In this document: positions 1,618 to 58,120 of the stretch, piece after piece
Layout of the letters: the number at the start of each line of letters is the position of its first letter
Position numbering within the stretch: the first letter of the stretch is position 1
Source: Leptodontidium sp. MPI-SDFR-AT-0119
Taxonomy: Eukaryota > Ascomycota > Leotiomycetes > Helotiales > Leptodontidiaceae
Assembly: GCA_020726505.1 (NCBI GenBank)
Contig: JAHLEZ010000004.1
Span: 3,224,001 to 3,288,000 of the forward strand
DNA: 64,000 nt
Reading direction: 5' to 3'
The notes under the pieces: generated by a model
Told to the model about the DNA's origin: nothing
Database searches by the model: none
The model's input: only the letters and a program-made list of their open reading frames with translations
Position numbers and translations under genes: made by a program

Positions 1618-3887
1618 TTATAACTCCTCCTCCTCGTCCTTATCCTCGTCCATCTCAAAGTCGAAAGTTTCCTTTATTACAGGTTATAACCGTTAAGGCA
1701 AGTCTTTACCCCGGCGTCTCTTTCCCGCCAGCGACTTAACAACCGTAGTTATAATAACAGCCGATTTTTTCGTCCTTGTGAGTATATTAAAACAATCTTA
1801 CTAAGTGAAGTACAGGCCTTATATTAACAATAATTTTCTGCCTTAATTCGCGTATTCTTTGGCTTAGTTATTAATATCTTCCTTTCTAAACGGAACTTCT
1901 CTAACAGTAGCACCCTTCTTAATAAATCTAACTATCCCTTCCTTGAATAAAACAACTTGGTTACTTTTAATACCTTTATTTAAGCTACGAGCTTAGCGAT
2001 TTGTAGTAGGGGTAGAACTAGTACTTTCCACGGTAGGTCGAGATACGTCTAGTTAATGGCGATACAAAGGTAAACTAGCCGGCACTAGATACATAGAAGG
2101 GCCTTCTTGACTTCTTGTGAGGTCTATTGTACTAAAGAACGTAATATGTCGTGAACGTTTAATATAAAACGAACTAATTTTATCTCTATCCCTTTTATAT
2201 TTAAAAAGGGGAACGTGTATTTTGTTTAAAAAAAGGTGTGCGAGGTCTTAAGTATCCATTAGGCCGTGGCCACATTTATAAGACAACGGAGCGCCTTTGC
2301 CAGTGACAGTAATTTAAGGGAATACTAAATCTATATAGATAGTATCTTAGCTATTAATATATTCCTTAAATAATATAATAAAAGGGCTTACTTTATAAGC
2401 ATCGAAATTGAATTTTTCGTTTAGCCGTAAGGTATAGAATACGTCCCGAAGTGCCTTCTTAATTATAGCTTGCGCAGGGTCCTGAGTTACTTCGAACTTG
2501 ATCTTTGGAGTCGAAAATCTTAAGCGGGACGCAAGCTCCACTAACTATAGCCGGCTATACGTATTTAGATATTTATATACCTTATATAAGCAAAGCCACA
2601 ACTGCTGATAGTAGATATTAAAAGTATCCTAGTGTTCTCTTAGGACAATTATATACGGACTCGACACCCCCTACTGTATTACGATCCCACCGCTATTTAA
2701 TCTAGTGCCGGTAAAGTAATGAAACCACTGCTAGCGAAGAGTTTTCTTACGAGACGTAAGTAGGAGTTTGGACAAGAATTCAGCTGGCTGCTTTAAGTAC
2801 CTGATGTCTTTGATTAACGTATATAGACTCGGCATTAATTCCTTATTAGCGAGTAGACGCTAGGCGATGTCAGCTCTCTCTAGGGGATCGACGATTTCAG
2901 GGAAAAGCTCGCTAGATCTTATGGTCTCGCTGATAAACTCATAATCTGACTTTGAAAGGGCAGGCGACTTCGACTGTATGGACTCTATGGAGGTAGGATC
3001 AGTTCGTATTATTGCGGCTATATTGCTATTGAAAATATAGGTGAAAATAACTTTAGTAGAGTTGATGTAATAAGCGATTTCCTGTACTAAGTTAGACTAG
3101 ATATTTCAGAGATTAAAGAAAACTAACTTCGTTACACTTCAGAAATAAGAAGACATTAAGAGATCTTATATAAAACTCTCTCCAGATACCCTAGATATAG
3201 AGAACGGAATCCAAAGCGGCAACTAATATAGGCCGCTTAAGGAGCTACGTTAAAAACTTGTCTTAAGAAGGGCTAAACCTTCCCCGCCAGCGTTATACTC
3301 CCACAGGGTTATTATTGTAGTAGTAGAGGCGCATGTGCCGAAACACTTCGCCGGATGTGTATTTTGCTAAATATAAATACCCCTCGCGAAGCGCTTGCTT
3401 AGTATCTTTGTTGAGATCTAAGTAGTAGTTAGCTTAGTTACACGTCCGAGTAGGTGCAGCTACTGGTCCCATAGATATTAACTACCTACTACTATTGCAA
3501 TGCGGCAAGATGCTCTTTCGCTGCCAGAATTCGATGTTAACCGTGAAGGCATTTTAGTTTTACTCCGCTTTTTAATTCTAAGAAGAGTGGATAGTTTGCT
3601 TTCGCTCTGAAAGTTTCGGTTGTGAGAGAGAATTTCTTAAGCGCAGCTTGTAGTATTGAATTATTAATAATGATAAGAATCCGGTGACTCGGTTCCTCTC
3701 GAATACATCCTTCGCCATCGAAATCTCTTATTAACTGCCGGATGGCCTTCCTATCGATTTAACGAGTTGGGTGTGGAAATTCTAGGTGTCGAATTAATAC
3801 TCGAGCTGCGCCCTTGAACTTGGCCAGCTTATCGCTTATAATCCTTTGGTTTATAGCGGCGAGAGTTTCTTGACTTGATGTTTTCAT
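1618..3887 (-). pseudogene. DUF3723 protein relic (Starship-type cargo family)
   Basis: Reading the minus strand through stops from an ATG at 3887 gives one frame of about 756 codons. The N-terminus carries the DUF3723 hallmark DFDGEGCIREEPSHRI, followed by the start of the conserved LHGQH motif (LKCLHG). The middle contains ADYYLDLN-like and RWRGRF-like blocks and SIESIQSKSPALSKSDYEF (about 3000-2940). The C-terminus has KLLLI..LYFT..DCFNIL and ends in an acidic run near 1620. Most interruptions are TAG or TAA in place of expected CAG, CAA or TGG, with almost no frame slips, as RIP would produce. DUF3723 proteins have no known biochemical role; they are known as frequent cargo of fungal Starship elements. 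It is divergent from the kinase relic to its right. The frame is certain; the exact 3' end is approximate. Confidence 0.8.
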
Positions 3888-4037
3888 GTCGAGTTAGCAG
3901 TATCGGTTTGGATACTATGAGGCAGAATAAATAGCAGTGATAGAGTTACAAACTTTGTAGTAGTAATAAGCAAGACGTTTATAGTAGTATCGCCCTTCTA
4001 TAATGAATACATAGTTCTTTCCTGAGTAATACTAGTT

Positions 4038-4182
4038 CTTCACTTTTGGCGGGTCTAAGGTAGTCAAAGTTAAGCGAGGTAGTGCATTGATTAACCTATT
4101 GTTTGTGGAGGGATAGTAGTTAATAGTTAAGCGAGGTGAAACCATTGCGGGGGTGTCAGAATCGGGCGAGGTGCTCACCACT
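4038..4182 (+). repeat. Degenerate GCGAGGT repeat cluster
   Basis: Several spaced copies of TTAAGCGAGGTAGT-like units occur, with decayed copies between them. The same core recurs at 13.4, 40.0 and 54.1 kb on the same strand. This copy lies between the divergent DUF3723 and kinase relics, where their promoters would have been. Confidence 0.6.
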
Positions 4183-4289
4183 TAAATATATACTGCAAAT
4201 ACTTATAGTACACTTCGCTAACTCTATCAACTATAGATTTGAAATTCAATCGGAAAACACGATTTCCAAGCAATGATTAGGGTCTGTTA

Positions 4290-5290
4290 GTAGAAGCTAA
4301 TGTTAGCAAGAAGAATGCTAACCTTAATCGACGTACCCGATTCCTAAGAGGCACTAATATTGAAAGAATCCGCTTATTAGAGAAAGAACAGCACTGAGTT
4401 GAATCTTCTTTAGAGAAAGAACAACCTACTTAACTTCTATTTTGACTACTAATAAGGGCTAATCCTCCCGATGTAGTCCTAGAGAAACCTGTGCCGAAAA
4501 CGAACATCGAAATCTCCGAAGTAGATTAGCTTCCTCCCGTTCGAGTAGAGAGTCCCTAGGACTTTTATATATCTCTTCGTCATCTAGAGCGCGGCGGCCA
4601 AGTCATAGTAGTATATAGTCGAGAGGTTCCTGTGCGTGTAGTCGTCATTAAAGAGCTTATGTCCCACGAGTTTCTAGAGCTAAGAAAATGCCAACACGAG
4701 AACTTACTAGCGATTATAAAGGTTTATCGCCTTTAAGGCGTCTTTTTCGTTATTACGGACTATACGGCCGCTACTTTCAAGCAAATTATCGCGATCCCAC
4801 TGCCTCTTGAAGAGCGGCACGTGTCCGCGACTTGCCGTTAAGTATATCCTTCATATGTTTCCGAAAATTCAATAACTAAAACGCGTAGATCTTCGAAGGC
4901 ATATAGCATTTATCTAGGTTTGGTATGTCTCATAAGAAACTAGATAGCTCCAGGGTATTATTCTCACCAAATAAGTATGTAAAAATAGGTGCGTTGTCCG
5001 GGATTATAACATATACACTAGTCTAATTAAAGCTCAAGCCCACTTTAATAAATGCAGAACTACGGAATCTACTGCTGTATGGTCTCTTGGGGTCATTGCT
5101 ATGGAAATGATGTAGAATAGTATCCCCCCGGAGGAGGACGGGAAGTTTGTTTTAAAGTACCCCGACCGCTAGTTATTAGAGGCATTGAACTTCCTTGGGG
5201 TCACCTCCTGGGGCACGTTATAGGAAATTCAGAAAGTGAGAGATCCCTTTGCTGCCTTAAGTCCACTTATCAATGTTGTTTTAGTATCGC
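4290..5290 (+). pseudogene. Eukaryotic protein-kinase relic
   Basis: The plus-strand frames contain a kinase N-lobe and hinge (VVVIKELMSHEFLELRKCQH, then VFFVITDYTAATFKQIIAI at about 4640-4800). After a degraded middle comes a C-lobe in another frame (SLGVIAMEMM, IPPEEDGKFVLKYPDR, ALNFLGVTSWGTL, about 5085-5230). The VIK lysine position and the hinge are readable; HRD and DFG motifs are not, so either they are destroyed or the protein was already a pseudokinase. Stops at glutamine and tryptophan positions match RIP. The family call is firm; substrate and role cannot be told. Confidence 0.7.
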
Positions 5291-5539
5291 TTCCTAACTT
5301 ATATATCACTAACTATTATAATTCTATTTATTTATTATATAGGCTGGGATATTATCGAAAGTCTAAGCTTAAAGACGTCGGATTTAGCTATAGTTTCTCT
5401 ATTAGTTAGCGGTTGAATATATAGCTTAGATTGTTAAATAAGAAGATTTCTACTAAACATTTAAAAAGAAACTACAGCTGCTGTAATTACTCCAAACCCT
5501 AACTCAAGCAACCCTACCCATATAATTTATAAAATAATT
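5291..5539. other. Intergenic RIP-type DNA
   Basis: Short AT-rich stretch between the kinase relic and the next minus-strand relic. Nothing is recognised. Confidence 0.5.
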
Positions 5540-6060
5540 ATCTACGTAGCCTCTTACTAATCTCTGATACCTAGCATTCCTATTCCTCCACGCAAGATGT
5601 TCATCTCTTAGATTACTAGAATCAATGTCATTAATAATCCTTGGGCATCAGCTTCACGCAAAAAGCGGTCTTTATGCCATTTTATACTATCCTTTATTGA
5701 CGTTTCTTGGTATTTAATCCGTAACTCTCCGTCCTCATTCCAAAGGAAGGATTTCTCGATTATTTCGATCTTGCCATCAACTTTGATCCAGTTCTAATCC
5801 TCCCTCTTGTCCCATAATAGATCGGCAGTTATTGCGCACAGCTCTTTTATCGCTAGAAACCTCGTAAGATTGCGCAGTATTAAGATCTCGTGAAGGAAAG
5901 AATAATTAACCGCGAGAAATTATAGTTCCTTAAAGGAAATTTCGGTGGCCATTCGATTAAGGCAATGGTTTGCTGATACTAGGTGTGGCGGAATGCTACT
6001 AATATATATCGTGTCGATTATAGGGTTAAAGTGCTAAACTGCTTTCGCCGTTGTCCTTTA
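5540..6060 (-). pseudogene. Small gene relic of unknown function
   Basis: One minus-strand frame stays readable for about 150 codons with few stops. It includes MATEISFKELQFLAVNYSFL, LAIKELCAITADLLWDKRED and DSIKWHKDRFLREADAQGLL. The leucine-rich start and tryptophan spacing recall small fungal F-box-like or accessory proteins, but I cannot assign a family. Stops fall at positions that fit C-to-T change. It is kept because an unbroken phase over about 450 bases is unlikely by chance in TA-rich DNA. Confidence 0.5.
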
Positions 6061-6572
6061 ATATATGTCGTTTAAGGTTAAAATGAGTAAGTCGACCTTC
6101 CGGTATAACTGGAGGAAGAGGGTTCGCGACTCTCTATTAACACTAAGGAGAGCAGAGGGCTGGTGCGAGCTCTCTAGTACCCCCAAAAACCCAGTTATTC
6201 TAAAATTCAAATTCAAGAATCCTGGGCGGTGGCAGTGCTTCAGACTAGATATATAGCCTGATTTCTAGGGCAAGCCTTTTAAAAGGGTGGAAAACCAGGG
6301 GATTGCTTTAGGAGGACGAAAGCTATTGAGTACTAGGCGCGTTAGAGATGTCTAGGCGTGGTGGGGGACTTGACATCTTGTCTTTTACTGATCTAGATGA
6401 TAGTTAATATGTGGGAAACGTTGAAACAAATAAGGCCCAGAGATATAAAGGGGAGCTAATCTCTAAGGTGTGAGGACGTTATATTTATAGTCGATATACC
6501 TACGGGTCAAGGGGGCTGTGTTAATAGGTAGTTACACGTCATCCTCGTTAAGTCACTGGTAATAAAAAAAGG
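6061..6572. other. RIP-type DNA, no supported gene
   Basis: An open frame at 6065-6256 (+, 63 codons) resembles nothing I know and is probably chance. The remainder holds no recognisable feature. Confidence 0.5.
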
Positions 6573-6912
6573 TTAGTACTGGAAAATCATTAGTACGAGG
6601 AAATGGTTGGCACAAAACTCATGTTGGCACCAAAGTCCAGTTAGTGCCATGAAACTATTAGTACAAATAATTTGGTGGTGCCAAAGTACCATTTATACTA
6701 GGAAATAGCTAGTGCAAACGGGTAGCTGGCATAAATAAATCATTAGTACTATCAAAATACTAGTGCCATTGAATTCCTGGTACAAACAAGCTGTTAGTAC
6801 TAACGAATTATTAGTACTACTAAATTGTTAGTACAAATAATGTGTTTGTACCATAAAGTAAAGGGTACTAGTAAGTGATTGGTGCAAGCAAGTTATTAGT
6901 GTAAGTGGTCGG
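6573..6912 (+). repeat. 17-bp degenerate tandem array, about 20 copies
   Basis: The 340 bp segment reads as about 20 consecutive units of 16-19 bp. Each begins with TTAGTAC, TTGGCAC, TTAGTGCC or TGGTACA and continues with an A-rich half. The core GTAC/GTGC is nearly self-complementary. Array length divided by copy number gives 17 bp. The C/T and G/A variation among copies is compatible with RIP acting on an originally more uniform minisatellite. Confidence 0.8.
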
Positions 6913-8814
6913 GACCCTCAGTATTTAGATAGTTATATACCACCTAAGACTACTCGTGCATCTTGTAGTTAGGTCACGTGTGCAAGGGCGGCTTGGCTTA
7001 GTGACGCAGCTTTGTAGAGACTCCTTACCTCACTTTCACATATTGATGTATAAAGGTGGCGCGAGTAAGACAGCAGAAAATTATGTTATAAAATTCAAGA
7101 GAGCTTTGGACTGCCCGAGAGCTCGAATTTTGTAAACAATATGCCTCTCTTATCTTATTCGGGCCCTCTTCTTGCCTCGGTCCACCTCGCTCGACTTAGT
7201 TTTATACTCAACCTCCACTTTAGTCGCATCTAGGTTAGACTTAAACAAACCTACTTCCCCTGAAATCTAACCATTGCCGTAGACTCCCGAACTGCCGTCG
7301 CTGCTGACGCTTCTGGCAAGTAGTCATTTTCGTTCCGTAGTATTATTGTCGCAATCTTTTCCTTAGTAATGTATTCCTCCTACTCGTCGTATTTGCCTTA
7401 ATAAGTTAAACTCATATAAGTGTGACTTAGGTCGTAGGACTAGCCTTTTGGGGACTCATTATTACCTAAGCTAGTAAGGTCTCGGCAGCCGAGATAAAAA
7501 AAGGGGAGAACTTACATTACATTACAGATACCTAGCCTCTAATTGACGGCTTTTACAGTACTGTTAGTCATAATCCCTCAGTAGTCGTCAGTTTACCCGT
7601 TTAAGTCTTTCGATATGTTTGTTAAGGTCTCTTATAAACTCTAGGGGAGGCATTGAGCGTTCGAATGCCTAGTAAACAAGTAAGGGACATATACGAATAG
7701 AACTTTGATTTACTAGCTGAAAATATTGCGTGGCCTTGTCTGAACTCTTAATTAGGGGTCGTGGCCTTTTCTACTTTACTTCGCATTTAAATCTAAAGAA
7801 GTCAGTTTATAATAGAGAGGAAACAGTACGTGTAGCCATACGTCGTAGTTCGGTGAATCGAATATCCTCTTCGATGTAAGGCGCTGTTACGAGTATCTAG
7901 AAATCTGTGTTAGCTTAAAAGGTTCAAGTATTACAGTTGAATACACGTATAACATACTGTCTCAGAGCTTTCTCTGTGCTAGTCAAAGAAGTTCGCGGGT
8001 TGTTTCCTTAGTACCTAAACTTACAGAGGGGAAGTTTTTATTTACAGTACGCCTTATTTTAGCTAGAATTTCGGAGCTTATATTACAGGCCAATAATATA
8101 ACATATAAAAGAGGGTAACTGACAGATAGGAGGAAGACCCTACACCACCCCTGTTATATATATAGGTCCGTTATAGTCTCCGCTAGTAAGTCTGCCTTAC
8201 TGTTTTAGCGACTGTTTATCCTTCTAGTAGCTCCACTTCGGCGGCCCCTTCGTTTCGCAGCTATCTTATTGCTATACTTACTTATATTATGACTGGTAGC
8301 TTATAACGAAGGAGAGATTACGTTTTGCCGAGGTGGCTTAGAGACACCGAGATCGATCAGCACTTACTTATTGTTTGTGTCTTAGGAGATCTTAAGGTGA
8401 CTTTCGCTTCTTATATTTGTAAACGAAACTCCTCGATTTTCAGTTATTCTCTATAATAGAGACGGGCTGGCATATCTAAAACAGTAAACTGGTTAAAAGG
8501 AAGGAAGTTCCTGAAGATACTAGCTCTACTTTAAAGCATCTTGCTGAAGGTGCAGCGTTAAACCCCTGACGAGCTAGTCGAGACACCTACTATATTACCT
8601 CGAACATAGTTTAAATAGTAGGCTAGATTAATAATTTCGGACACGTAGGCAGTCTAAAGCCGTGGCCTCCATGAGCTCCAAAGATATAAAGGGACGAGCT
8701 TCCCTCCCTCTATCAATTATCTTCTCCTTATTACTTCACATTTCTTCTTTATATTACACTTTTCCATCCTCTATTATAAACTAGACTTTATTTATAGAGC
8801 GCTGCTAACACGAC
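6913..8814. other. RIP-type DNA with a possible minus-strand relic
   Basis: Between about 7240 and 7850 on the minus strand there is a serine/threonine- and lysine-rich frame with repeated stop interruptions (for example NLDATKVEVEYKTKSSEVDR). I cannot identify it and would not call a gene. The remainder is featureless TpA-rich DNA. Confidence 0.4.
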
Positions 8815-9700
8815 TACGAATTCTTTCTTACGAATAGATCTCCTCTAGCATATAACTCTTCGCTTAAGGACATCAACCCTCCCGCGTATTACTACAGAAC
8901 ATTAATCAGTATATTAGATAAGATAAACACATAGATCGCTAGTAGAACTCCCTCCTACTACCTTAACTCCTGCGAGTAAGTCTATTATCTCACGAATACG
9001 GCGAGACGACATCGAAGAAAGCTCACGCAAGTACTATTAGTAATAGAGGCGGCCAAGTATGCGTTTAGTTACTATTAGCGACTACGGACGGTAGGGCTTA
9101 CCTCACTGCCTGCCGCCATTATTTATAATATTGTAGCGCCACTATACTATCTTACTCAAATGGTAATAGCTTTATTTCGGAGTAAATTTAAACGAATAAA
9201 GGCGGACACGGGAATTTTAGATAAGGTTCTGGAAAGTCTTCGACTTAGTCTAGTAATAGCTTTCAGAATAGTTACGAGACTCGGTCTTGAAACTCACGAA
9301 GCTATAAAGCGACAGATCTAGAATAGGGAAGGCCATATATTCTTGGCGATAGCGAGGCTCCTAGAAGCTTACAGGTCACGCTTTGCGCCTTCTAGTACGG
9401 TTTTCCTCGCCTTGTACAAAAGGTTACTAAAGGAGTATTACTTTAGTACTACACGGCTCCATTTTAAATAAATTTATAACTTAAAGGAAGTTTTAATATT
9501 TGTCGGTTTGTTTCCGGCATAAGATTTAGATACTTTCGCAGTGCTCGAACGCTGCCTGCGCAGAGTCTTCTTAGCCCTCAAAGAACTATTTGTAGATTCG
9601 GATGAGAAACCTAGCTTTTCTTATATCGTATAGAGATTACGCTATATTTAAGATAAGATATTAGGATTAATATCTTTCTGAACTAGAAAATAAGGCAGTT
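8815..9700 (+). pseudogene. Gene relic of unknown function with a long conserved frame
   Basis: A single plus-strand frame of about 290 codons has only a handful of stops and no frame slip. Readable parts include DINPPAYYYRTLISILD, LPAAIIYNIVAPLYYLTQMV, RLGLETHEAIKRQ and DLDTFAVLERCLRRVFLALK. It is arginine-, leucine- and tyrosine-rich and probably alpha-helical. I recognise no domain. It converges on the 3' end of the patatin-like relic at about 9.96 kb. The pattern of nonsense changes without indels fits a real gene killed by RIP. Confidence 0.6.
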
Positions 9701-9959
9701 AAGTCGTGTAAGGTTAGAGTGTTTAATAGCTAGACAAGCCTAGTATTTGTGTTTGTTATCGTTTTGTGTGGCGAGTTCTAGGGCTTGACGGGGCAGTAGG
9801 GCAGACGGAGAGCATGTTTACGAATGCCTGACGGGATGAGATAGAGCGAAAAATGTATTATATAATAAAGTCAAGTAATAAACAACTGATTTATTTAGGT
9901 TTAGCTTTTAAAAATGAGACTTATTATATCGCCTTCCCTTTATCTTAAGCGCCGCCTCT

Positions 9960-12744
9960 TATTCTATGTTCTTATTTAGACGCCTAAGGCCCGTTTGCTC
10001 TCTAAGAGCTTGACAGGTTTATTAAGGTAACATATGAGCTCACAACTGCAGGCCGGATTTTGAGCCCGCTCGTTTCTACTTTTATAGTTAGGCAGTCCAA
10101 ACTTCGCATTCAGTTTTAGCCGTTTAACGAACTATTCCATTAACTACGGAAACCCACTAATACTCCGACGGAACAATCTGTTAAATGAAAACTAAAGGTT
10201 GACTCAATCCGAGGGATAGCGTATATAGAACTTAATTAGCTTCTAGAATCGTCTATACAACTCGCAGAGATCGTTCGGGGCTAGGAACCTAAGCGAAGAT
10301 TCCTAATGAAGGAACTGTGTAAAGGGGTAGCTCGTTCTGAGACTCTACACAAAGGCACGACTGTCCGGACTCCGGGACAGAATCGAACCGTGGCATGTGT
10401 ACTGCCCACCCTCAAACACTAGAGGCCCGTTGAGCTTAAAGAAGAAGGACGCTACTTTGAAAGCCCTAGTAATACCCTCTATATCGCCTAAGTAATAATA
10501 GATTTACTTACGGAGATATTACATCTTATCAATATCGTCAATCTGAGGTTCCTGACTTATAAGGGGCAAATTGAGCCGGAAGTGCCGTTTCTTCTCTTCC
10601 TTATTAAGGCCATACTAGTGATCTTCCTAGCTAAGTTGGCCGTTAAGTAATAACGACTATATAAAAGCTCAATAAACGCGAGTTAAGGCGCTATCTTATA
10701 GCAAGTTCCGGACGTTAGAAGCTACTGGCGATAAGAGCTTCTGCTAATATCCCGTCCTAATTGAAAGCACTAGATCGCAACTTATATCACCCTAAATTCG
10801 GCGAACTTCACGTAGGCCGGGCTAAATAAGGTTGTTATATTTCAACCCGCCGTCTTAAAACGTACTAAATGACTCGAGATACTTTGGTATAAAGTAACTA
10901 GCCCGGTTAGCTTTAGTCTCAAATTGCTAAATATAACTCTTACGTTAAGGTAGCTGTTATATACCTCGCGCTGTCTATTATTAGCTAGCACGAAACAAAC
11001 AACTAAGGAAACTTACGCTTCCTAGAGTAGCATCTCATCTGTTATCTTCTTAACACAAAGATGTTTATATCTTGGGGTGTTAGTCTTAGTAAAATGTGAG
11101 AGGTGTTAACTTACTTGAATCTCTGCCAAGAGGGCCGTTATTATTATAATTTGAGATTAGGCATAATGTAGCATCTAATATCGTCGTCGCCGTAACTGCA
11201 AATTTCATTCTAAATGGCCTTGATTTTGCCGAATCAAATAGCCGGCCTAATCTAAATGTTTCCTTTAGAGCCTTTTCTAAAACAACTACATTATACCGGC
11301 CATCTACGAGATAGAAGGCAAAGATACGTCTGAGTATAGTATAAATTGAATACCTATAACCGCGCTTTAGTAGGAAGATGATCCTCGCAAACTTAAAAAA
11401 GAAAGCGAGGTATTACTTTGGCGTCCAGTACTTAGCAAAGAACCTAATAGTTATAATACTACTTATTGGCTGTTAGTTTAGAACTAGGTTACGAAGCCGG
11501 CCTTACTTGAACTCGTCCCGATACTATAATTAAAGTGCTCCTGTAGAGGATATAGTAGGTCTAGCGTCTTTTTCAGCTCTTCTATGAATACTAAGGAGAT
11601 AATACCTCTAGAACCGCCCCTATTTATACCAAGGAATCTTACTCGACAAGTGGGCGGCAAGAGTCTAGCCTAAAAATGAATCTCCTTCTAACAGAAAGGA
11701 CAAGTAGCGAGGTCGTACTAGTACTCCGCCCCCTTCATTAGCTTACTAAAGGCGACAAGACAATCGTCGTAAATAGTATATTCACACTCTAGATAGTGTT
11801 CTAAACTCCTCTGGAGATAAGTGAGGTAAATCGAGGTATACGATAATAATAACTAATGTTAGAAGTTTCGCCCTAAGCTTCTCTAGCGAAGTGCAACTGT
11901 TAACTGTCCACTGTACTTCATGTGTAAGAATATAGAGATTATATAGGCCTTAATATCGGCAGTAATTAAGTCGACATTTAAGTGCTGGGAATTTACGAAG
12001 TTATATATACCTAAGACGTAAGATTGACGGTATAAGTTTCGGAAGACGTCTAATGGGTTGAACACTTTTTTTAATTAGTTAGATTCTACTTATAGATGTT
12101 TAATATTAACACTTACTATGTATATCTAAAAAGAAGCTATTAAAAATGACCACTAAGGTAATAAAGTCCTAAATTATACTTACAGGAATATTATGCTCAG
12201 AATATAAGCCTATAAAGATACTTAAGTGATATTAGAAGCTGTAGGAAACAAGGTATAATTCTCTTAAGTATAGAATAAAATCAAAGGTCTGTGGCGATGT
12301 CGCGAACTGGCGCAGTGTTATATCAAAGAACTAGGTAATATGAATTATAGAGAAAAGTGTGTGGGCGTTAATTTTCTCAATACGAATTAGATGTATTTTA
12401 TATTATAGGGCCTTTACTAGACCTTTGAAATGCTCGCGCGAGGGGGTTCGACTTAGGCTTAACACGTTAACTATATTTAACGAAGAGAATAACTCTAAGA
12501 ACTTATGATTAGATAAAACCCTCAAACGAAATTAAAGGGCTTCGGATACGAAAATATCGCTAAGTATACTCGTAACAACGACTAATCGAGGACGGACAGC
12601 ATCAGGAAGGCTCGACGCCGAGCCGATTGCCGTCCACCCTACTAATATATCTACTACTCTGTTAAGGCCGCCGTAATCCGGAGTAAATATATATAATATA
12701 TTAATAAATAACGAGAATAGTCTAGCTAGGGCATAGTCAGCCAA
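9960..12744 (-). pseudogene. Patatin-like phospholipase (PLP) relic
   Basis: Several minus-strand blocks line up in the order of fungal patatin-like proteins. An N-terminal P-loop-type region includes YGGLNRVVDILVGW and RPRLVVVTSI (12,744-12,540). It is followed by the LFDSAKSRP..AVTATTI block (about 11,230-11,160). The patatin DGG motif is kept as DGGLKYNN at 10,854-10,831, then GDISCDLVLSIGTG-like and HFRLNLPL blocks, and a C-terminus with RRSISGFP near 10,150. Patatins are serine/aspartate acyl hydrolases; the catalytic Asp of DGG is visible, but the GxSxG serine region is not readable. Stops are mostly TAG/TAA, and there are several frame changes or intron remnants. Patatin-like genes are a known Starship cargo class. 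The 5' end may extend beyond 12,744. Confidence 0.75.
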
Positions 12745-13339
12745 GTGTTACTGCTTTTATTAGTCACCCTCGTCTAGCCAGCCCACCGGGTGATTAATTG
12801 TCTTATGGCAGGTGTCTTTGCCTCTTAACTTAGCTTGTGTATAATTAAGGCAGCTATCTACAATGAGAATTAGATGTTTATCGTTTTATGTGGCCGGATA
12901 GAGACAAATGTTTGCGATGTCGTACTTTCGATAGTTTAATATAGTGTTTCCGGGATATAGAGCTCTTAATACCCGTGTTTTGAACTACTTTCTATAAAAG
13001 AATAGTATTAATAGACGTTAGTTTACGGGGTCTGGAAGCGAGGTCGAAATATAGTGAAGTCGATTTATATATTATATTCTAATACCGTTTTTATCCTCAT
13101 ATATGCGGAGCTAATATTAGTGAGCACACAACGCTATATTAGCGGTACTAGATTGGAAGGGGATCGGCTCTAATAATAGTTTGTATATAAATCTGATTTT
13201 TATTAGTAACTTTAATTATTTTAGAGGATTATTAAGATATATACTTACTAGACGCGTGTGGGCAATACGTGTAGTGGAATAAGACAGCCGAATTATGAGG
13301 GTCGTAGGTGAGCGATTGAGATAGTGATCTATTTAGCAA
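12745..13339. other. RIP-type DNA upstream of the patatin relic
   Basis: This stretch probably holds the lost 5' end or promoter of the patatin-like gene. No readable block is seen. Confidence 0.4.
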
Positions 13340-13475
13340 TTAAGTAAGGTGGATGTGTAGGTCAGGTGGGGCAAGGGGTGGTCAAATTAGGCGAGGTAGT
13401 ATTATTAAACGCGGGCACTTGAATTAAGCGAGGTAGTATATAAATTAAGCGAGGTAGTTAAGGGGTCATTAACAC
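13340..13475 (+). repeat. Degenerate GCGAGGT repeat array
   Basis: Five to seven imperfect units share the cores TTAGGCGAGGTAGT, TTAAGCGAGGTAGT (twice) and more decayed forms, spaced about 17-21 bp. It has the same family and strand as the arrays at 4.1, 40.0 and 54.1 kb, and lies upstream of the patatin-like relic. Confidence 0.7.
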
Positions 13476-16400
13476 CAAGATGCCCTATAACTGCTAACCC
13501 TCTAATTATAACGCTGGCCTAAGAACTTAGTGGCGAGTGTAGGTATTACGTGATCTTAATCAAAGTATACAAGAAATTTATTTATAATAGAGTTGTTTAG
13601 AGATAATTGTAATTGTAATTTGTTTTATTTACTTAAAGAATGACCTTAGATACACCCTCTTAATTAGAGCGCAACTTAATATTATATACTCGGGTAATTC
13701 ACCTGCTAAAGAGCGTTTGCGATCTTCCATTAAAGACCTGTCCCTGATGATTCTCTGGACTAACTACTCCCTTTATAACTTGAGCGCCCATATACTTGCG
13801 GTAGCTGGCGTATATAAGAAGTGTAAGAGAGTCGGGTCTCTTGAAGATTGATTTTCGAGGAGTCTATTAGACGGAGGCTCCTTTTATATACGGGGGAGGA
13901 GATGTTTCTTGGGCGGAGGAAAACTTCGAAACTAGTCGGCGGCATACACGTCGAAGTCTTAACCTGTTAATCCTTTCTTACATCGCCTTAAACTGATCTT
14001 CGTTGAGATAGACGATAATATACATTGTTTTATTTGTTAGATTCGATGACTGTCAAAGTTATTAGGTTTTTACCTCTTATTGAGTTTTCCTCTCTAGGTA
14101 AACTTTGAATTTTGGGGCTAGTAGATGTGAGATTTCGACTTGACTGCGTCCACAGCCTTCAAGTATTCTCTATAGCCAGCTAACTTACCCCTCAATTATT
14201 AGACGGTAGTTTATACTATTTAACGTAGGTGTTTTATCTTTAGAGGTGGTTATTATTAATATAGCAGTAAGTTGATAGGCATTACTTATGATTTATCGTC
14301 TAACTACTTTAGGAGACCCAGAACTTTACTTTAACTACTTAATTAACGTCGCATAATAAATTATATACTTTTTAAAAAGTCTATAATATCTTAGTCTAGG
14401 ATTTACGAAAATATAATGTCGCAAACTATCCAGATGACTTCAGTAAGGCACCTTAGCCTACAAAAGCACATTTTTAACAAGTAGTAGGAAGAGTCTGTTT
14501 CTATTAACAACCTTAAATAATTGCCTCTCACGCTTATAACATAAAAAGTAAATGTTACTGACGCGTACGACGTATAGAGTCGTGTTAATAACGCCGAGCG
14601 AGAATTGTCGATTATACGTACTAAGCTCGCACGAGAGATTCGCAAGAACTGGCGGCTTTAGTAATAAAATTATGAGTATATGGAAGGGTTAGGGCGAGTA
14701 GTGCAGGACTGTAGCGTGATGAGGCACTACTTTAATCTTGTGTCGAGTTCGCATCTTACCCTCTCGCAGGAACTTTAGAAGGCAAAAGTGATAGTGGCGA
14801 CTTTAGAAGCTGTTATTTAGATACTTTCTATATCTTCCTTTGAAAGGTTAAGTAGCTTAGATATAATGGCCAGCAGAGAACAACTTATAGTGGACAAGAG
14901 GGATTGATAGTAATGTCGATATTTAGATCCAGTTATTCTGTGGCCTTTCTATCTATTCCACCTTCTACTCTTATATTGTCTTTCGCACTGTCCAAAATTG
15001 CCTGTGAATTTTTGAGGAGACTAACGAGATTATTAATTATAACACTATCTAGGTCATTTGACCCGTATGCTAACCCCATAACTAGACCTATCACAGCATT
15101 AATTCGATGAAGAGCTTTATTTATGTCGTTAATCTTGATAGTCATCTACTATAAATGATTATCCTTATAGTCGCAGTCTACTTTAGATCTCTTTAAACCC
15201 CGGGCACTGCTATTAGAGCCTTGAAAATGTGAGTATAAACTAATATAGTGGAGAGCGAGGCTTACTTTTATTAGTGTCTATAGCTAAGAGATTTAATGTC
15301 TGTTCCCGTCGACGCTTATTAAGACTAACACTGCCGAGTTTCCTGAGGACATTTCCGGTTCCGACTTAAGGCGCTTTGGCGCCACGGGTTGCCACGGCTT
15401 ATAACTAGGCTCCTAATAAGAGTAATAGGGGCGTCCCGGGTGACATTTTTGCATCTCTGACTAGTATCTCGACACTGGTCCTACTCTGAGTAGAGTTTTG
15501 TGTCTCTTTGAAGCTTTTAGAAAGTTTAGTAATACTATGCGAGCCAGCCTGCTGACAGGTTCCGGCCTCACGATTAGTAGACTTGTAATCTACTTCTGGA
15601 ATTTCATTATTCAAGGAGTAACTCCCTATTACATCCTCTTAAAAGGTCGCTCTTATATTGCGATTAGTATGTTATATATAACACGGAACAAACGTAACTA
15701 CCGTCACACTCATAGGCTATATTCTGTATATAGCAGAGCCTTACTATTGCGTGATAGAGGATGTTAAATGGAGCATCTCTATGGCCTTCTTGGCCCTCTC
15801 TAGCTATATCGCGGCCGGCTAAGTAGCTATTATTAGATAGTTGAGAAATTAGTGAGTTAAGATTGATGTTAGAAGATGTAAGGTGCTAAGTATCACATAC
15901 ACCGGATGAGGCTACGTATTGTCGACTAGCTGACATTTCTTATGCAAGTTCTTGACGTGGAAAGAAGTAATAAAAGTATAAGAGAATATTACAGACTATA
16001 GTTGAGACGTAGGAGGAGATGAAGGTTAGAGGAGGGCGAAGTGCTTCTTTTTACTTCAAGCAGTCGCTGAGCCCGGAGAGAACTCTCCGCGATCAGTCTA
16101 CTTGGAGGAGGTAGGCCGACTTCTCTATTAATATGTCTATAAAAGGTGTGCTAGAAATAGACGAGGCAGAGACGATTGTCATCGCTCGTCAGCTTTTAGG
16201 GCGGATTATGGATATGTTAGCTGTAGATAGGCGCTGGTCTTTATTACGTTGTCGAGCCTGTGCCTCTCTTGAATAGTATTTACTAATTATGAAGTTAAAA
16301 GGCATTTTATATTGTAGTTCTAGGCGTTATTCAAAAATATCTCTCGTATTTAAGGCGCTTAGGGGTGACGAAAAGACGCTTAAGGGATTATTAGTGGAGC

Positions 16401-17419
16401 ATTTATTAGTGAAAAGGGATATCTTCGTTAATAGCAGTTTAAGGAGTGTGGAAGGAGACCCGCTGAACCTTTCTATATTTGTGCAAGAATAGTTACTGGC
16501 TCTAATTAAGTTGCTTTTAAAGCTACTATGACGACACTATATGCCGATGGCACTTAGTCGGTCCCACACGAGAGGAGTCTTGTCTTGATTTATGCGTAGA
16601 ATCTAGTGATCCGGAGCTATTTTCGACAAGTCTGCCTTGCCATTAACAAATATTTGCTCCCGGGATATATTATAACTGCTACTGACTTAGTAAAGCACCG
16701 AGAATAATAGTAAAGTGGGATCTAATAGTAAGTCAATCTCTTGAAGGGAGAAGTATAAGAAGTCGTCTCCTTCTTAGCTCTGAGGACAGACTTTTGTCCT
16801 GTAGTTTTCATTTCATTGAACCCTCGGCCCTCTCCTTAATCCAGCATCTTTGATTAACATAAATCCAGAACCGCAGACCCACGACAACTAACTAAGTATA
16901 GAGATCGACTGGCCATTAGACACGGACTCATTAATCCTTTATGATCTCTAGACGTACGATTTAGATTATTACCAAGAAGCCGTACTATAGAACAGTGATA
17001 ACCTATCAGCCCTTCTTGGTCTCGATACCTGCGACTCAGATTTGACTACAAAGACTCTGTAATAGAGAATTGAGAGCTCGTGTTCTGAAACCCAATTTAC
17101 TGTAGAGGAAACGCAGACACGTCTTATTAGAGCCACCCAGCCGACAACGGGCGTTCTACTTCTTACGGCTAATGTCAATAATTCCACCCCTTATTTAATC
17201 TAATCTACTCCGGAATTGGCGATTTAGAAAGTATTAGAAACAAATACTAAGGGAGGCGACGATTAACTAAAACCGGAGGTTAAGTTAATGTAAGAGCTAG
17301 AGGTATATTTGGGCAGGAAACTCAGACTTGGCATATAAATACTAATAATAAGTAAGGCTTAACTTCGATTTTTGCGGCATAAGCTATAGAAAGGGTTTTT
17401 GCTAATTGCTGGACAGCCT
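13476..17419. other. RIP-type DNA with unassigned coding fragments
   Basis: Several short frames look gene-derived but cannot be named. On the minus strand, 15,145-14,933 includes NDINKALHRINAVIGLVMGL and 14,645-14,403 is hydrophobic; a serine/threonine-rich piece lies at 15,614-15,405. On the plus strand, 16,136-16,492 includes DEAETIVIARQLLGRIMDML and LVEHLLVKRDIFVNSSLR. On the minus strand, 17,187-16,969 is another piece. None shows a domain I can defend. Confidence 0.4.
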
Positions 17420-18567
17420 GAAGTAGATGAGATGAAAACTATGTCTGCTTACTTAAAGAAATTAGAGCACATTAGAGACCTACCGTAAAGTATCCTGCGC
17501 GTTACTAAGATTACTAAACTTCTTAAAAAGATTATAAATTTAGATGAGATCCCTAGAAACGGCAAATATTCTTTTAAGGACTAAGTAACTGTGTTATTCG
17601 AGAAGTAGGGAACGAGCTTAGAGAAAGAAGATTAGACCACATCCTTGACTAAGAAGCCAATTAAACATAATAGCACTGGACTCAGCGCTATTATAAACGA
17701 ATAGAGGCCTACTAACACGGCGGACTCACAAAAACTATTAGGCAATAAAGCACTAACTTTAGTAACTAGTTTGATAAAGGAACGGGCGCTGAATATAGTC
17801 GTTAGATTAAAGCGGTCAGCTAGCGATTATAACAATGAGTCTATTGGCACTCCGGCTAACGAGTATTCTAAGCTTACCCCGCCCCCTTCTCCCGCCCCTC
17901 ACGATTTATGCAAGCCAAACTAAGCGGTAATTAATTTAATAGACGACGATGAGGTAGATATAGCCACCGGATTAGAGCCACCCTGCCACCCTACTGATCC
18001 TCAAAGTCTTCGACTTAGCGTAGCCAAGAGCACGCAGGCATCCGGGTCACTATTACCCTTAAGTATAAGTGAGTGCTCCTTAGCACTACTTATGAATAGC
18101 CTAATATATAGTTGTAGATTCTGAACCGATTTTTATTACAACTTAGAAGATCTAAGCTAGCCCGAAGTCTACTTCGGCTAAGTCAGATATAAAGAAGTGA
18201 AAGCGCTCTAAGGCTATTAACGACGAGAGAGCTCCAGTGTTAGCTTCAAACTCCTGTAAGTTGTAACAGACTTTAATAAGATTCTCAAACTCACAATTGA
18301 GCAACAGGAAACTATAATATAGATAATACACTAAACCGCTAACGACTATAACGGAAGACTTCACCTAGGAAACACCTTACTAACGAAATCTTATAGATGA
18401 GCGGATCGGTTTTAAAGATTGAGAAGACAATTAAAGAGACAGAAGAAGAAATTAACATAATAAAAAAAAAGAGAGTCCAGTTACTCAAAGAAAATAAAGC
18501 GGAAATGCAGGCAGCCCAGAGGAGAATAAATGAGTTAATTAACTTGAAGGAGTATCTACTTACTTAG
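17420..18567 (+). pseudogene. TFIIS N-terminal (LW)-like protein relic
   Basis: From an ATG at 17,432, one frame reads MKTMSAYLKKLEHIRDLP, then SILRVTKITKLLKKIINLDE and LFEK.GTSLEKED. This resembles the helical bundle of TFIIS-N/LEDGF-type domains, including the 'LLKKI..LDEIP' stretch and the expected tryptophan position (a stop here). A proline-rich acidic linker follows. The 3' end at 18,397-18,567 is an open 56-codon coiled coil rich in K and E (KIEKTIKETEEEINIIKKKR). Such domains tether elongation or chromatin factors. The assignment rests on pattern only; the linkage of both parts into one gene is inferred from order and strand. Confidence 0.45.
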
Positions 18568-18979
18568 GGAGCCTAAGATAAGAAGGTCACAGAAGAATAG
18601 TCATCTTAGAGTAAGGTTAATGAGCCTTATTTAGATTATAGGCAGTAGCTAAGATATTCTAGTCTTAGCTATATAAATTGCTGTATATTTAGAATTCTAT
18701 TTATTTGCAAAAGTAACGCTAATATATGTATGTGAAGATATATGTAATGACAGACTATGAGCAAGGAAATCTAAGGTGAAAGAGAGGGGATGCGATTATA
18801 TATTGGTAAAGATTGACAAAAATGAAATTAACTCGTTAGTACAAGGAGGGCTAGACAAAAGGAAACGAGTAAGGGGCCAAAAGAAAGTCTATTTATCTGA
18901 GATCAAGAGTGAGTAGAGAGTAATACTCTAGCAGTGCCTATTTAGATACCAGACTCCGCCTCCTTAATTCCACAGCTTT
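18568..18979. other. Intergenic RIP-type DNA
   Basis: Between two convergent relics; no feature seen. Confidence 0.4.
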
Positions 18980-20270
18980 CACAATAAATCTTTGATCTCG
19001 TTTTAGGCCTTTAGGAACCTTCTCTTAGCGGCCGGCTCTATATTTTCTGGGTCTATGCCCTTAAGGTCGCACCACTGTTCACGGTACTGCAGCATTGTTA
19101 CTCGCTGGGATGCCTTTAACGATACTGTGCTATTAGTAGTAGCAGGCGGGTTGCCACTATTTCCACCCTTAATCTTGATCTCTGGCTGTTTTAGTTCGGG
19201 GGTGGGCGAAAGTCGGCTGTTCGGGGCTGGGGTCGGAGATTTGTCCTTTGCTTCACGCTGGCCGTTCTGCTATTCCTCGTGACGAGCCGCGTGCCACTTT
19301 GCCGCCTTATAGATATAAACATCGCATTTCTTGGCGTTACTGAAGAGGTGCCGAATCAAGGACCGGACCTCCCACTTCTTTTAGATGACACCACTAATCT
19401 CCCATTTAACTTAAATTTCAAGAGGAGTAACTCTTCGAGTTTCGCCCTTCTCCCTCGGTTCTAGGTCCTTTAAATCGCAGTTATAGGCCAAGCCCGCGAT
19501 CCCTAATAGCTCACGTCTCTTGCGCACGAATTTCTTCGCGACTTTTAGGTCTCCAAGTTTATAGTCTAGACTAAATTACTTAGTCTCCTCTTCGTTAAAG
19601 TCGTTGTCCTCTTTAACAGCCGTGGAACGTTCATATTTTACGGCGTTTTGGGGACTATATCTCACAATAACTAGCTTTAACTAATCTTACTGCCTTTATA
19701 CAACGATCTTTCCACTATAGCTCTGTCCTGTCGCCTCCCTTACTTAAGCTAGCGTGAACACAGCCTCCTCATCCTCGGAGGGTTCGACACTAATCAGTAG
19801 TGTAGATTTGCCATCGGGCTCAGTTAAGTCGACTAAGGGTGTCCCATTGGGCTTGTTGGACGAAGCACCCGGTTCCCGAGGCGGAACGAAGAGTCTCTCG
19901 CCGTCACTATCCTCTTAATGTTCTATATTAATATCCTTGTCTTCTTTATTCAACTTCTCTAGTTCTCCCTCCTACTCTATTAACTCTCCGTCTAACTTGG
20001 CGATCTCCGCCTTCAGATTGTCGTACCCTTCTCTCTCCCCGGGCTTAGAGTTATCGAGGGGAATTTTCGAGAGCTCTTTTAGCTTGGCTTTCTTTTCTAC
20101 GACGTCGTTACGATGTTTTTCGACATTGAGAGTAGTTTCCCGAATTTTCCCGCGAACTTCTTATTTACGTGTATTTCTGGCTATTAACGTGATAGGAGCT
20201 ACCCTATTGCTTGTACCTTTAGATTTCGTCTCTTTCGGTATCTTGATTGTTCCTGGAACTTATTAAAACA
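18980..20270 (-). pseudogene. Charged-protein gene relic of unknown function
   Basis: One minus-strand frame remains in phase over about 430 codons with roughly a dozen stops. Blocks include DNLKAEIAKLDGELIE, DGERLFVPPREPGASSNKP, LVDLTEPDGKSTLLISVEP, SLDYKLGDLKVAKKFVRKRR and YREQWCDLKGIDPENIEPA. It is strongly charged, with an acidic, coiled-coil-prone N-terminal half and a basic middle, which suggests a nuclear or nucleic-acid-binding protein, but no domain is identified. Absence of indels over 1.3 kb with many TAG/TAA changes is typical of RIP. Confidence 0.6.
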
Positions 20271-21429
20271 CGGGGTTAAATCTAAGAATATATATTACTT
20301 AATAAAGTTTCTAAAATCATTTCTCATTAGGATATTTCAATGATAGATTAACACCCCCCAAAACCGGATGGCCACACCACCCTAAATATATAGAGGTGAT
20401 TCACTACCAGTCGTAAAGTGGTCATCTAACAGTCCAATAATAGAGGGCTCCACCGGGAGCCATTAGTTAATAGTCTAATAGCACCTATAATCGGTTTGGT
20501 CTGGAATTAAACAAGATTCTCAGGGAGTATTTCACGAGATTAAATCTCCTCTTGTTATCTTATTTAACGTAACAGTTATTTAGCGACCTAGGAAACGATA
20601 TGCGAATTACCTGGAACGTAATAGTATTCTAGTAAGATAAAGAGCCTACTCGCTATAGCACTTGCACTAATCTTTATTTTATGTTTACTAAAATTTGCAG
20701 AGACAGGGCGGAATTATTGTGAGTATATTAAATCGACGAATCCTTAGTTGCTAACATATTAGCCTCTTGTCACAGAAGATCGCGAGCACTGTCGCTAAGG
20801 GGCAGGTCGAGAACCCGGGCTACACGCTAATTATCGAATACACATCTGCACTGCCCTTGAGCCTCCTCATCGATACAAGATTGCCGCCGTCTGGTTTTGC
20901 CCTTAGTAACATTCTAACGAGCACGAGTTTTAGCTTCGCGCTACTTACTAGCCTGCCTATAATTGCGGCTATCGTCTTATTAGCCGCTATAGTATTACCG
21001 CAGTTAAATAAATGAAAAAGATGCTGAGGATGGAGATTTGCTAGGTTAAAGGAATATATAAATAAGAAATGAAACTATTAAACAACTATACTTAGATTAA
21101 TTATATGTGATTAAATGAGCTATTATAGAATATACCCAAAACAATCGAGTGATGTCTAGACTTCCGACGAACTATACTTATCTTATCCTGCTAAAGCGGC
21201 TAAGAAAGACTACTCACATATCAGATGCCGAATACGATTCGTCAACGCACTATTTAAAAGCGACTTGTCAAATCTCACACGAATTAAACCTGAGTATAGT
21301 TTTTCATTCTTCTAAAACTCTTTGGTTTGTTTATTGAAACCCAAAATGACAAAGGTCAAGCTATTTCTACCCGAACCTCATTTAGCGAGTTAGGGATATT
21401 ATGAAGTCCTTCTAACCTCCCACCTTGTG
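20271..21429. other. RIP-type DNA with one possible coding fragment
   Basis: The minus strand of about 21,015-20,767 reads as a basic, leucine-rich piece (VRMLLRAKPDGGNLVSM); the plus strand of the same bases is hydrophobic. I cannot decide which, if either, was coding. Nothing else is recognised. Confidence 0.35.
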
Positions 21430-21837
21430 CTAGGATGATAAATCGAGTCGTGGTGATTCTGGGGTTTTAATTCCAAGTAAGGGTAAGGTAGACATATCCT
21501 CAGAAGCGTATGATGGGCATGAAGTGTTTACGTTTGCTTTAGAAGCTTTCTCCTTCGCCTGAGACGTAGTTTCGTAGTCCGCAGCTGTTTTAGAAATGAC
21601 TAGATTGCGTTGCTTACGAGGGTTAGGCATGGAGTTTCTCTTGGGGCATAGTTAACTCACGATATCTTCCTCGGTTGGCCATACTAGTTCCTCTGTATTT
21701 GCGAAAGTGTAGAATTTGCCGTTCCTCTTAAAGAGGATGAAAACCTCCGTGTCGCAGACTACTCTAATGTCGTAACCCTAATGAAAGAAGTTGTTCTTCC
21801 TCTTGCGAAATTGCTTTGATTTGGCCCGCTTGTCCAT
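21430..21837 (-). pseudogene. Small MADS-box-like transcription factor relic
   Basis: From an ATG at 21,837 the minus strand reads 135 codons in one phase with two nonsense codons. The N-terminus KSKQFRKRKNNFFH followed by GYDIRVVCDTEVFILFKRNG matches the MADS core (basic helix, then the 'LCDAEV..I' strand). The first stop lies inside the helix-strand junction, where a lysine- or alanine-type codon is usual; the second (TAA) is near the middle. The C-terminal half is serine-rich and low in complexity. MADS proteins bind CArG-like DNA as dimers. Its length is short, as in stand-alone fungal MADS-like proteins. The fold call is good; a target is unknown. Confidence 0.65.
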
Positions 21838-22204
21838 GATTAAAGTTGACGCCGATGAAGATTGGTTAGAGGTGGACTTACCCGTCATTATATTGGTGGG
21901 CACCTGTACCAAGCTGCAATATCATCGGTACCACTATGTCGAATGCCCACCTTTTGGACGACCACTTGAATGATCACTTCCATAATCTACTTGAATTATT
22001 ACTTGAGTGACCACTCGGTTCATAAACTCTTAGCCGATCACCCCTATAGTTGTGTAAGTTAATTACTGTGGGCCTCACAATGCTAATAGTTGTGATTACT
22101 AACAAGCGGCATAACGCTATCTCTAGGACTAAATCGGGATTCTCAATTTTCTAATATTAGAAGTTTGGATACTCACAGTACTGTCAATTATGTCGTTTTT
22201 ATTA
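21838..22204. other. Divergent intergenic region
   Basis: Separates the minus-strand MADS-like relic from the plus-strand ferric reductase relic. It contains several alternating CACTTGAAT/TGACCACTTG-type motifs at 21,958-22,015 but no gene. Confidence 0.4.
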
Positions 22205-23990
22205 TTTGTACGTTCAGGGGTTTCTAAACTCAGCGACATAAACATACTGTCGCGGTACTACTTTATTTTTGCCTGTATCTTTGCCATATAGCTTTTCCTT
22301 CGTGCCATTTATTGTGCGTTCACCTCTAAGTGGCTCTCGACTTCCTCCTTTTTCTTGAAACATACTGTATATTCACATGCCTTTCCAAGGATTCCCTTTG
22401 TAGGGACGGCAACGCGTCTCAAGGTTCTACTCGCATCCGCGTACGTTATCACGAATACCGTCCTCGTTACAGTCGTTGGGGTAGAGTCAAGGTCAGATAT
22501 AGGCGCCTGTGCTACTATAATGTCGATTATTAACCTCATTCCGCTCTTGTGCGGTCCGCGTTTGAGCCTTATGACAGAGATGCTCGGAATTTCGCTGCGG
22601 ACCAGTATTAGAAGCCACTAATAGTTGGGCCAAACGGCGGTCGCGGAGGTCTTGTTGCACACGATTATATTATTAACTGGTAATTAGTTATTTGTATGGA
22701 CGGGGATTAATACCTCTAGAGTTGTGGTGCGTCTGCGTTGGCTTTCCCCTAGGGGGATCTTCGGCTAACTTCAAGTCATAGGCGAGCTCCACTATTAGGT
22801 TTATTCTCCTTTTCTCGTTTCGTGTCGGGCAGAGGCTTTTCTACGAATGGTTTCTTAATTTATATTTGCTTCTCTCTATTACGGCGTCAATCGCTATTGG
22901 ATGTTATGTATTCTTAAAAAAGCCGGCGGAGATATTTTTATAGATTAGTATATGTTTGTGGCTTAGGATGACGACACTCCACTGGCTTATATTCGCATTC
23001 AGAAACTTTGCCATTGGCAGGCCATTTGCAAAAGCGGTAGCAACTCGCCTCTTAAATCCCTACCTATTTAATAAGTCGCTTACAGAGCCGTCGAACGTAT
23101 TGTAGGTCGATATAACCGTGCCTAGAAAGTAGAAGGTTAGGGCTAGTTAGCATGTCTTCCTTTTAATCCCTAAACTTAGGGTCTTAGTGGGACTACGAGG
23201 ACACCCTTTTATAATTTCGTGGTGGGATTGGAGCCAGAAAGGGTTAATAATCTCCCTCTTAGTGAAGTTAAGGACGGGGTTTACCGGGCAGTTAGATAGG
23301 TACACCAATAGAGAGCTCCTTACATTTATTGATAGACTATACGGGATATAGCATAAGTTTGGAGACTACGGAACAGTGATCATGTTTGCCACCGGGATCA
23401 GTATAGCGGGCCATATTCCATATATCAAGGACCTCATTAGCGGATATAACAATTGCGAAGTACGGACGCGTCGGATTCTCCTCGTCTAGTAAATAAACAA
23501 AGAAAGTGAGCTAAGGAAAAGAAAAATCTTCTTGCCGCTTTTAATTTTCTCTTAGGCCAAGAGTAGTGGGTCAAGAGTTAGATGGATGATCTCCTCGATA
23601 GTGATACCGGATATGTACGTATGTGTTATCTAAAATTGTCAGCTTGCTAACACTACGTGGATCCTCGAGGTCTGCCTTCATGTCTAGGACTACGGGAAGA
23701 AAGATTTAGAATATAGGAGTCATTCTAAGATTAAGAAGATATTTACCCCCCTAAATGTTATTAAAGTACTCGAGACTGAGTTCAAATCCCACCGAGGCAA
23801 GGTGATGGTCTCCCGTAGGCGTCGGTTCATTATATCCTTAGACCACCAACTAAAATCGTAATAGTGTGTGCTGACTGAATTATGACCGACAAAGTTCGTA
23901 AGGAGGTCGTGGGGAGAATAAATAAGAGGGTACGCCTAGTCGAGCTAGATTTCTAGCTATCCTTGCGAGAGACAGGGTGGCCGTCATCTA
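22205..23990 (+). pseudogene. Ferric reductase (FRE) relic (Starship-type cargo family)
   Basis: Plus-strand frames read a membrane segment set (INLIPLLCGPRLSLMTEMLG, then TAVAEVLLHTIILLTG at 22,630-22,675). After degraded helices comes the FAD-binding HPF motif as GHPFIISWWDWSQKG near 23,205. Next is the NADPH-binding ATGISIAGHIPYIKDLISGY at about 23,388, and a C-terminus reading EINKRVRLVEL..ETGWPSS. This order is that of fungal FRE-type metalloreductases, which move electrons from NADPH through FAD and haems to extracellular ferric iron. Haem-ligand histidines cannot all be placed. Many TAG/TAA codons and several frame changes (some may be intron remnants) make it dead. FRE genes are a known Starship cargo class. 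Confidence 0.8.
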
Positions 23991-24249
23991 ATAACATAGA
24001 ATTCAAGTGCAAGGGCTGAGAAATCAAGTGCTAATGCTCACGAGTCAAATAGTAAGCACACTAACCGGGGCTTTAGTAGAGTAGGTTATTAGACTAGGCT
24101 GAAAAACGATCCAATTTACTTGCCGTGCTACGAGTCCTGGTTAAAAAGAAAAAGGTGATTTAAAGTTTTTCGAGGTCATGGCCGACCGAGTCTCCTCCGC
24201 TTCCGTTGTTGTTATTAGAACTAATAGATCGTCGCAGCTGTTATTGGAA

Positions 24250-58116: not shown

Positions 58117-58120
58117 AGTA

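Follow-up and report, generated by a model that had tools for sequence, protein, structure and literature searches.

The gene relics in the window, the 64,000-nucleotide stretch of Leptodontidium sp. MPI-SDFR-AT-0119 DNA analysed here, are almost certainly part of the cargo of a 253,563-bp Starship that has been mutated by RIP and whose insertion site on contig C34 is a subtelomeric repeat. The window lies wholly in the interior of this one element of about a quarter of a megabase, which is now fully bounded (Table 1). A sequence-only reading had proposed Starship cargo here, and that proposal is borne out: the element has a captain, direct repeats flank it, empty sites exist, and other insertions share its ends. 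The same reading had the island ending near 24 kb, and in this it was wrong, as the element extends past the window on either side.

Boundaries, target and empty sites

We drew copies, ends and empty sites from the window's own 77-Mb genome, whose contigs carry C-numbers. The left, captain-distal (3') end of the element lies 19.4 kb left of window base 1: matches on C13, C17, C4, C18, C24 and C69 all begin at C34:3204573 (query base 570-573), and leftward of this position is a repeat present near many contig ends. The right end is the 5' end, on the captain side. With C34:3454801-3459300 as query, copies on C13, C19, C4, C17, C5, C67 and others end at about C34:3458143 (query base 3343-3354), and the target repeat resumes from query base 3340, exactly where the left flank left off, with four bases shared. 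This end was also aligned on C8 and found on C27 as a search match only. In the end alignments, flanking DNA outside the ends differs between copies, and the target sequence is TAAT within AT-rich or TAA-repeat DNA. For C34 the target was a subtelomeric repeat, and 38.5 kb further right is the (TTAGGG)n contig end.

When joined by script, the left and right flanks on C34 form an uninterrupted repeat that matches 7/7 fetched copies over 395-396 bp, gapless, at 98.5-99.7% identity (400 bases fetched per empty repeat, for seven of the loci with the flanks side by side). These empty repeats carry one TAAT and the C34 insertion carries two. By our own count of the matches listed in two genome searches, both flanks adjoin with a 4-bp overlap at at least 12 loci, which are paralogous repeats in one genome rather than the allelic site of a sister strain. 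This places the insertion at C34:3204577-3458139, between two copies of TAAT, which supply the short direct repeats that had been suggested as a check of both ends. We found no significant terminal inverted repeat; the best inverted stretch is 6 bp, equalled in 688 of 1000 shuffles. Such repeats are common in Starships but not obligatory.

Table 1. Features of the element and of the window. Positions are those of the window unless prefixed with the contig.
Feature	Position	Strand	Basis or remarks
Starship body	C34:3204577-3458139 = window -19423 to 234139		253,563 bp
Direct repeats TAAT	C34:3204573-3204576 and 3458140-3458143 = window -19427..-19424 and 234140..234143		flank comparison
Starship interior	1..64000	.	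ends, repeats, captain
DUF3723 relic	2131-3707 (pieces 3465-3707, 3125-3427, 2563-3093, 2131-2547)	-	PF12520
2EXR-like fragment, below curated cut-off	6194-6292	-	21.2 bits, cut-off 24.8
Patatin-like phospholipase relic	10372-12071	-	tblastn with own-genome C27 patatin ORFs, three ordered pieces
MADS and ferric-reductase block, recurrent	20688-24224	+	genome search and captain positions
MADS-box (SRF-TF) fragment, weak	21703-21840	-	Pfam 24.5 bits, cut-off 26
Ferric reductase relic	22358-23519	+	tblastn with own-genome C27 ferric-reductase ORFs, two ordered pieces
GH18 (chitinase family) relic	29960-30782	+	six-frame Pfam scan
RSN1/PHM7 calcium-dependent channel-like relic	33396-35626	+	six-frame Pfam scan
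Fungal rhodopsin-like domain relic	38674-39391	-	six-frame Pfam scan
LINE, non-LTR retrotransposon	43281-49256	+	endonuclease, reverse transcriptase, RNase H; 14-bp target-site duplication
2,681-bp insert (2.7-kb)	49559-52239	.	5-bp target-site duplication; P450 3' exon inside
ORF, possible Zn2Cys6 domain, below cut-off	54457-55053	+	17 bits, cut-off 21
DUF3435 captain, RIP-damaged	C34:3455451-3456729 = window 231451-232729	-	PF11917

The captain and the other copies

C34 has two PF11917 matches (3456046-3456729 and 3455451-3455948, both minus), which make up a DUF3435 captain 1.4 kb inside the right end. This putative outermost gene reads inward and lies about 167 kb beyond the right edge of the window; a position left of base 1, offered earlier as one possibility, is wrong. 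In C34:3204001-3298000 (94 kb, fully read), a home-made model of eight captain loci gave nothing credible (best E 0.81); this model found the C19 captain, outside its training set, at E 2e-72, and its C-terminal-half version was run without a positive control. Genome-wide there are at least 115 PF11917 matches, and among the 100 of 144 candidates scored, none falls in the window and no second DUF3435 match falls inside the C34 element. The captain stretch has stops in all three frames. Compared with the homologous pieces on C13, which are DUF3435 at 143 and 100.5 bits, 111 of 115 differences pair a T or A on C34 with a C or G on C13, and 3 are the reverse.

All five large copies that have a captain match (C34, C19, C4, C13 and C17) have it at the right end, reading inward, and its strand relative to the orientation of the element is identical in each. 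Both ends occur in the same relative orientation on C4 (about 292 kb apart), C13 (about 305 kb) and C17 (about 402 kb); the left end on C19 was not found in a genome search. More DUF3435 matches lie between the two ends on C4, C13 and C17, so these copies probably contain nested elements, which their end-to-end sizes may include. Over the parts that were read, C4 follows the window colinearly, though with breaks, from -14 kb to about 61.9 kb. BLAST gives 91% identity to the C4 copy over 10 kb, though this copy is unlisted in the whole-genome DNA search; because that search overlooks true copies such as C4, we did not count absence from it as evidence. The earlier expectation that a RIP-dead copy implies related copies was right, as large blocks are shared with C4, C17 and C19.

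Cargo relics

The sequence-only reading had recognised relics of DUF3723, patatin-like and ferric-reductase genes within 22 kb, and PF12520 and tblastn with genes of the same genome agree with it on all three. Together with NLRs, these families are frequent in Starship cargo. The DUF3723 relic consists of four PF12520 pieces in order (best E 4.8e-29), its DNA is 90-91% identical in 4/4 other copies tested (C4, C13, C17 and C19), and Pseudogymnoascus, Halenospora, Leptodophora, Rhynchosporium and Hymenoscyphus are among the best named matches to its homologues. Of 39 DUF3723 loci in the genome, 23 have one of the 58 captain loci within 150 kb, against 5.3 expected, counting loci merged by hand among the matches listed (at least 39 and at least 58), with loci and copies not independent of one another.

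For the other two families, profile searches were of no help. PF01734 (Patatin) and PF08030 do not match the window, six-frame Pfam scans of 1-25 kb gave no patatin or ferric-reductase match either, and a scan of window 1-43 kb for canonical motifs of both families gave nothing usable. Because these approaches failed, we used genes on C27 of the same genome as queries. The patatin query has a first ORF piece with a Pfam Patatin match at E 4e-6 (27.5 bits, just below the cut-off of 27.7) and two further ORFs without a Pfam match of their own; it aligns at 12071-11502 (E 7e-15), 11313-11119 (E 3e-8) and 10905-10372 (E 1e-11), all on one strand. The ferric-reductase query, which carries FAD_binding_8 (E 6e-9), NAD_binding_6 (E 2e-6) and a weak Ferric_reduct match, aligns at 22358-22603 (E 3e-6) and 23193-23519 (E 3e-11). 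The block that contains this relic and a MADS fragment is found again on C4 and C5, with identical ends and about 10 kb inward of the captain end. A MADS-like gene had been read here, of which only the weak fragment in Table 1 can be recognised; the kinase, SET and TFIIS-N genes of the same reading did not appear when window 1-40000 was scanned with Pfam in six frames at E<=0.05. This genome also has genes of both the patatin and the ferric reductase family far from captains.

RIP and the order of events

The composite RIP index is positive in 21/21 2-kb windows across window positions 1-42000, negative in 8/8 at 42001-58000, positive once more at 58001-60000 and negative in the final two. A RIP signature is thus absent from 42-58 and 60-64 kb of the window, and also from C34:3288-3298 kb and from 7/8 probes between C34 3310 and 3451 kb. 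RIP has acted in patches along the element, and the description of the island as RIP-killed holds regionally, for window 1-42 kb and the captain.

Differences between copies are dominated by transitions. Leaving out sites adjoining gaps, C34 and C4 differ by 4217 transitions and 176 transversions over 48,104 sites (24 per transversion), C34 and C17 by 1534 and 71 over 21,567 sites (22 per transversion), and C34 and C19 by 1246 and 113 over 11,528 sites. C-to-T type differences fall mostly at CpA (4,194 of 6,291, 67%), followed by CpT (1,211), CpG (649) and CpC (237), as classified in 15 aligned blocks of at least 1 kb from differences whose neighbouring base is shared, and summed by hand. Such changes occur in both partners, and RIP was therefore later than the duplication. 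In window 52240-53452 all 39 CpA-type differences are on the C17 side and 0/39 on the C34 side.

Two nested insertions are younger still. The LINE has 12 full-length copies including that in the window, at a rounded 100% identity and without a RIP signature; older copies exist at 84-87% identity. A Helitron-like element, nested in the part left of the window, does not look RIP-mutated either. As both lack RIP, RIP came before these insertions; it may since have ceased, or it may merely have spared nested transposons. The 2,681-bp insert is missing from the C17 and C4 copies. The suggestion that the region is a nested accumulation holds in part, since the element contains these three insertions.

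Discussion

In Starships, a captain recombinase excises the element and inserts it at a short target while passenger genes travel along, and the captain is both needed and enough for transposition. By analogy, the tyrosine recombinase encoded at the right (5') end would have excised the C34 element and joined it at TAAT-containing AT-rich targets. Everything from the captain to the left (3') end would have moved together, and DUF3723, patatin, ferric reductase and other genes would have been passengers. Spread to several loci would have come first, followed by RIP of the duplicated DNA, which would have placed the stops in the captain and the three cargo genes, and then by insertion of RIP-untouched transposons, the LINE among them, into the element.

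A single insertion is not the only way to assemble such a region. Two Starships could lie side by side, with the left end of one and the captain and right end of the other. The middle of the element has largely been sampled by probes (eight of 600 bp over C34:3298001-3454800), so that its continuity rests on its ends, and the cargo is mosaic, with parts of one stretch (L045) matching only C19 and C4. However, the joined flanks make one unbroken target, C4, C13 and C17 carry this pair of ends in matching relative orientation, and a second captain match is lacking among the candidates scored within the element, and we regard such a composite as very unlikely. Even less probable is a subtelomeric segmental duplication or an accessory region spread by ectopic recombination, in which captains would be mere bystanders. 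Its appeal lies in the large blocks that C4, C17, C19 and C34 have in common and in an insertion inside a subtelomeric repeat 38.5 kb from a telomere-like contig end, yet recombination of this kind is at odds with exact shared ends on many contigs with unrelated flanks, with a 4-bp direct repeat and with gapless empty sites, the last of which refute it for C34 unless the junctions are misassembled.

We give practically no credence to chance company, that is, to three common fungal families that happen to share an old, RIP-mutated block of heterochromatin. The patatin and ferric reductase genes far from captains would suit it, but the block is bounded as a single insertion, DUF3723 is conserved in every other copy tested and its loci are enriched near captains; the shared ends and empty sites refute this explanation.

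Read as one Starship, the C34 element belongs to a known kind by the features tested, terminal inverted repeats excepted. Like members of the Starship superfamily of the Pezizomycotina, it carries at one end a DUF3435 captain that reads inward, and it also has short direct repeats, empty sites, accessory genes and a fitting size. The mechanism outlined above draws on passages of PMC12153272, PMC12506042, PMC12134995, PMC12289983, PMC12257634 and PMC11623301. Starships range from about 20 to 700 kb in a passage of PMC12153272, and a passage of PMC12506042 places DUF3723, patatin and ferric reductase among their accessory families. What is new is a fully bounded case that is unusually large and unusually multi-copy: unlike the superfamily as described, this one genome holds at least four large same-ended, RIP-mutated copies. 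According to a passage of PMC12153272, with few exceptions no Starship exceeds one copy in Aspergillus fumigatus, whereas several build up in some other species. Prometheus-family Starships also target AT-rich sites, according to a passage of PMC11623301; this likeness is only a lead.

RIP-mutated Starships are known as well. Passages of PMC12257634, PMC12134995 and PMC11623301 describe the Limos copy in Fusarium falciforme, Frontier, the Gaeumannomyces GtA elements and the Prometheus copies of P. variotii and Spiromastigoides, with 813 transitions and 26 transversions for Limos. They share with the C34 element a transition-dominated decay at CpA and an inactivated captain. In those accounts strains or species are compared, whereas here the copies are compared within one genome, and RIP can therefore be placed after duplication.

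Whether and how Starships multiply within one genome, and whether RIP sets a limit to this, is under discussion, as a passage of PMC12153272 has it. The present set bears on this in a less usual way, with several very large same-ended copies in which copying, RIP and later insertions can be dated against each other. Copy by copy, transversions, which stand at about 0.3% between C34, C4 and C17, give the time since copying and CpA transitions the dose of RIP, and a clean set of paralogous empty sites defines the target. Tentatively, and with somewhat more doubt than belief, we suggest that a single lineage of Starships, a quarter to 0.4 Mb in size, gave rise in one genome to at least four large copies while these were still nearly identical, that the copies then underwent RIP, and that RIP has ceased since, for which the 12 near-identical full-length LINE copies would speak. 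If this reading is true, these copies would date an amplification, a genome defence and the loss of that defence in order.

Elements nested in the Starship

The Starship that spans the window hosts a nested Helitron-like element just left of it, and within the window it carries a LINE that is one of 12 full-length, near-identical copies genome-wide (the window copy included). We saw no RIP signature in either the Helitron-like element or the LINE. A 62-bp repeat occurs twice in the window, again about 1 kb upstream of a different captain on another contig (C19:560896), and at other places; the motif TGTCGGTGATT is common to this repeat and the left end of the window's Starship.

Features in and around the window, with flanking stretches L044 (left) and L045 (right), and on contig C27
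Feature	Location	Details
Helitron-like element	L044 (C34:3214001-3224000), about window -9.1 to -0.7 kb	Helitron_like_N, PIF1 helicase
62-bp repeat	window 40921-40982, 52293-52354	two copies
LINE	window 43281-49256	14-bp target duplication
LINE ORF1	window 43525-45081
LINE ORF2	window 45039-49043
2,681-bp insert	window 49559-52239	5-bp target duplication
APH/choline-kinase-like ORF	L045:7841-8695 (C34:3295841-3296695)	open, 284 aa; beyond window
Open frame	L041 (C27:279501-287500), 2830-5280	817 aa; minus strand; adjoins patatin ORFs

Candidate cargo genes outside the window

The kinase that the sequence-only reading placed around the three cargo relics may correspond to the APH/choline-kinase-like ORF, but this ORF is outside the window, in a part of the Starship without a RIP signature. 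On C27, the 817-aa frame is a possible NLR of a separate cargo cluster; by eye, its product resembles an NB-ARC/repeat protein.

Differences between Starship copies

The 2,681-bp insert, which carries a cytochrome P450 3' exon and has no evident terminal inverted repeat, is absent from the related Starship copies on contigs C17 and C4. Inspection by eye also picked out a 2EXR-like gene on its minus strand. The C4 copy has an additional 12 kb (C4:729466/741524) at window 21188-21192, with a 5-base overlap, and this is probably a nested insertion there. Across the duplicated stretch at window 52240-53452, CpA-type changes number 0 in the window's contig, C34, versus 39 in C17, and RIP is therefore uneven between copies of the element.
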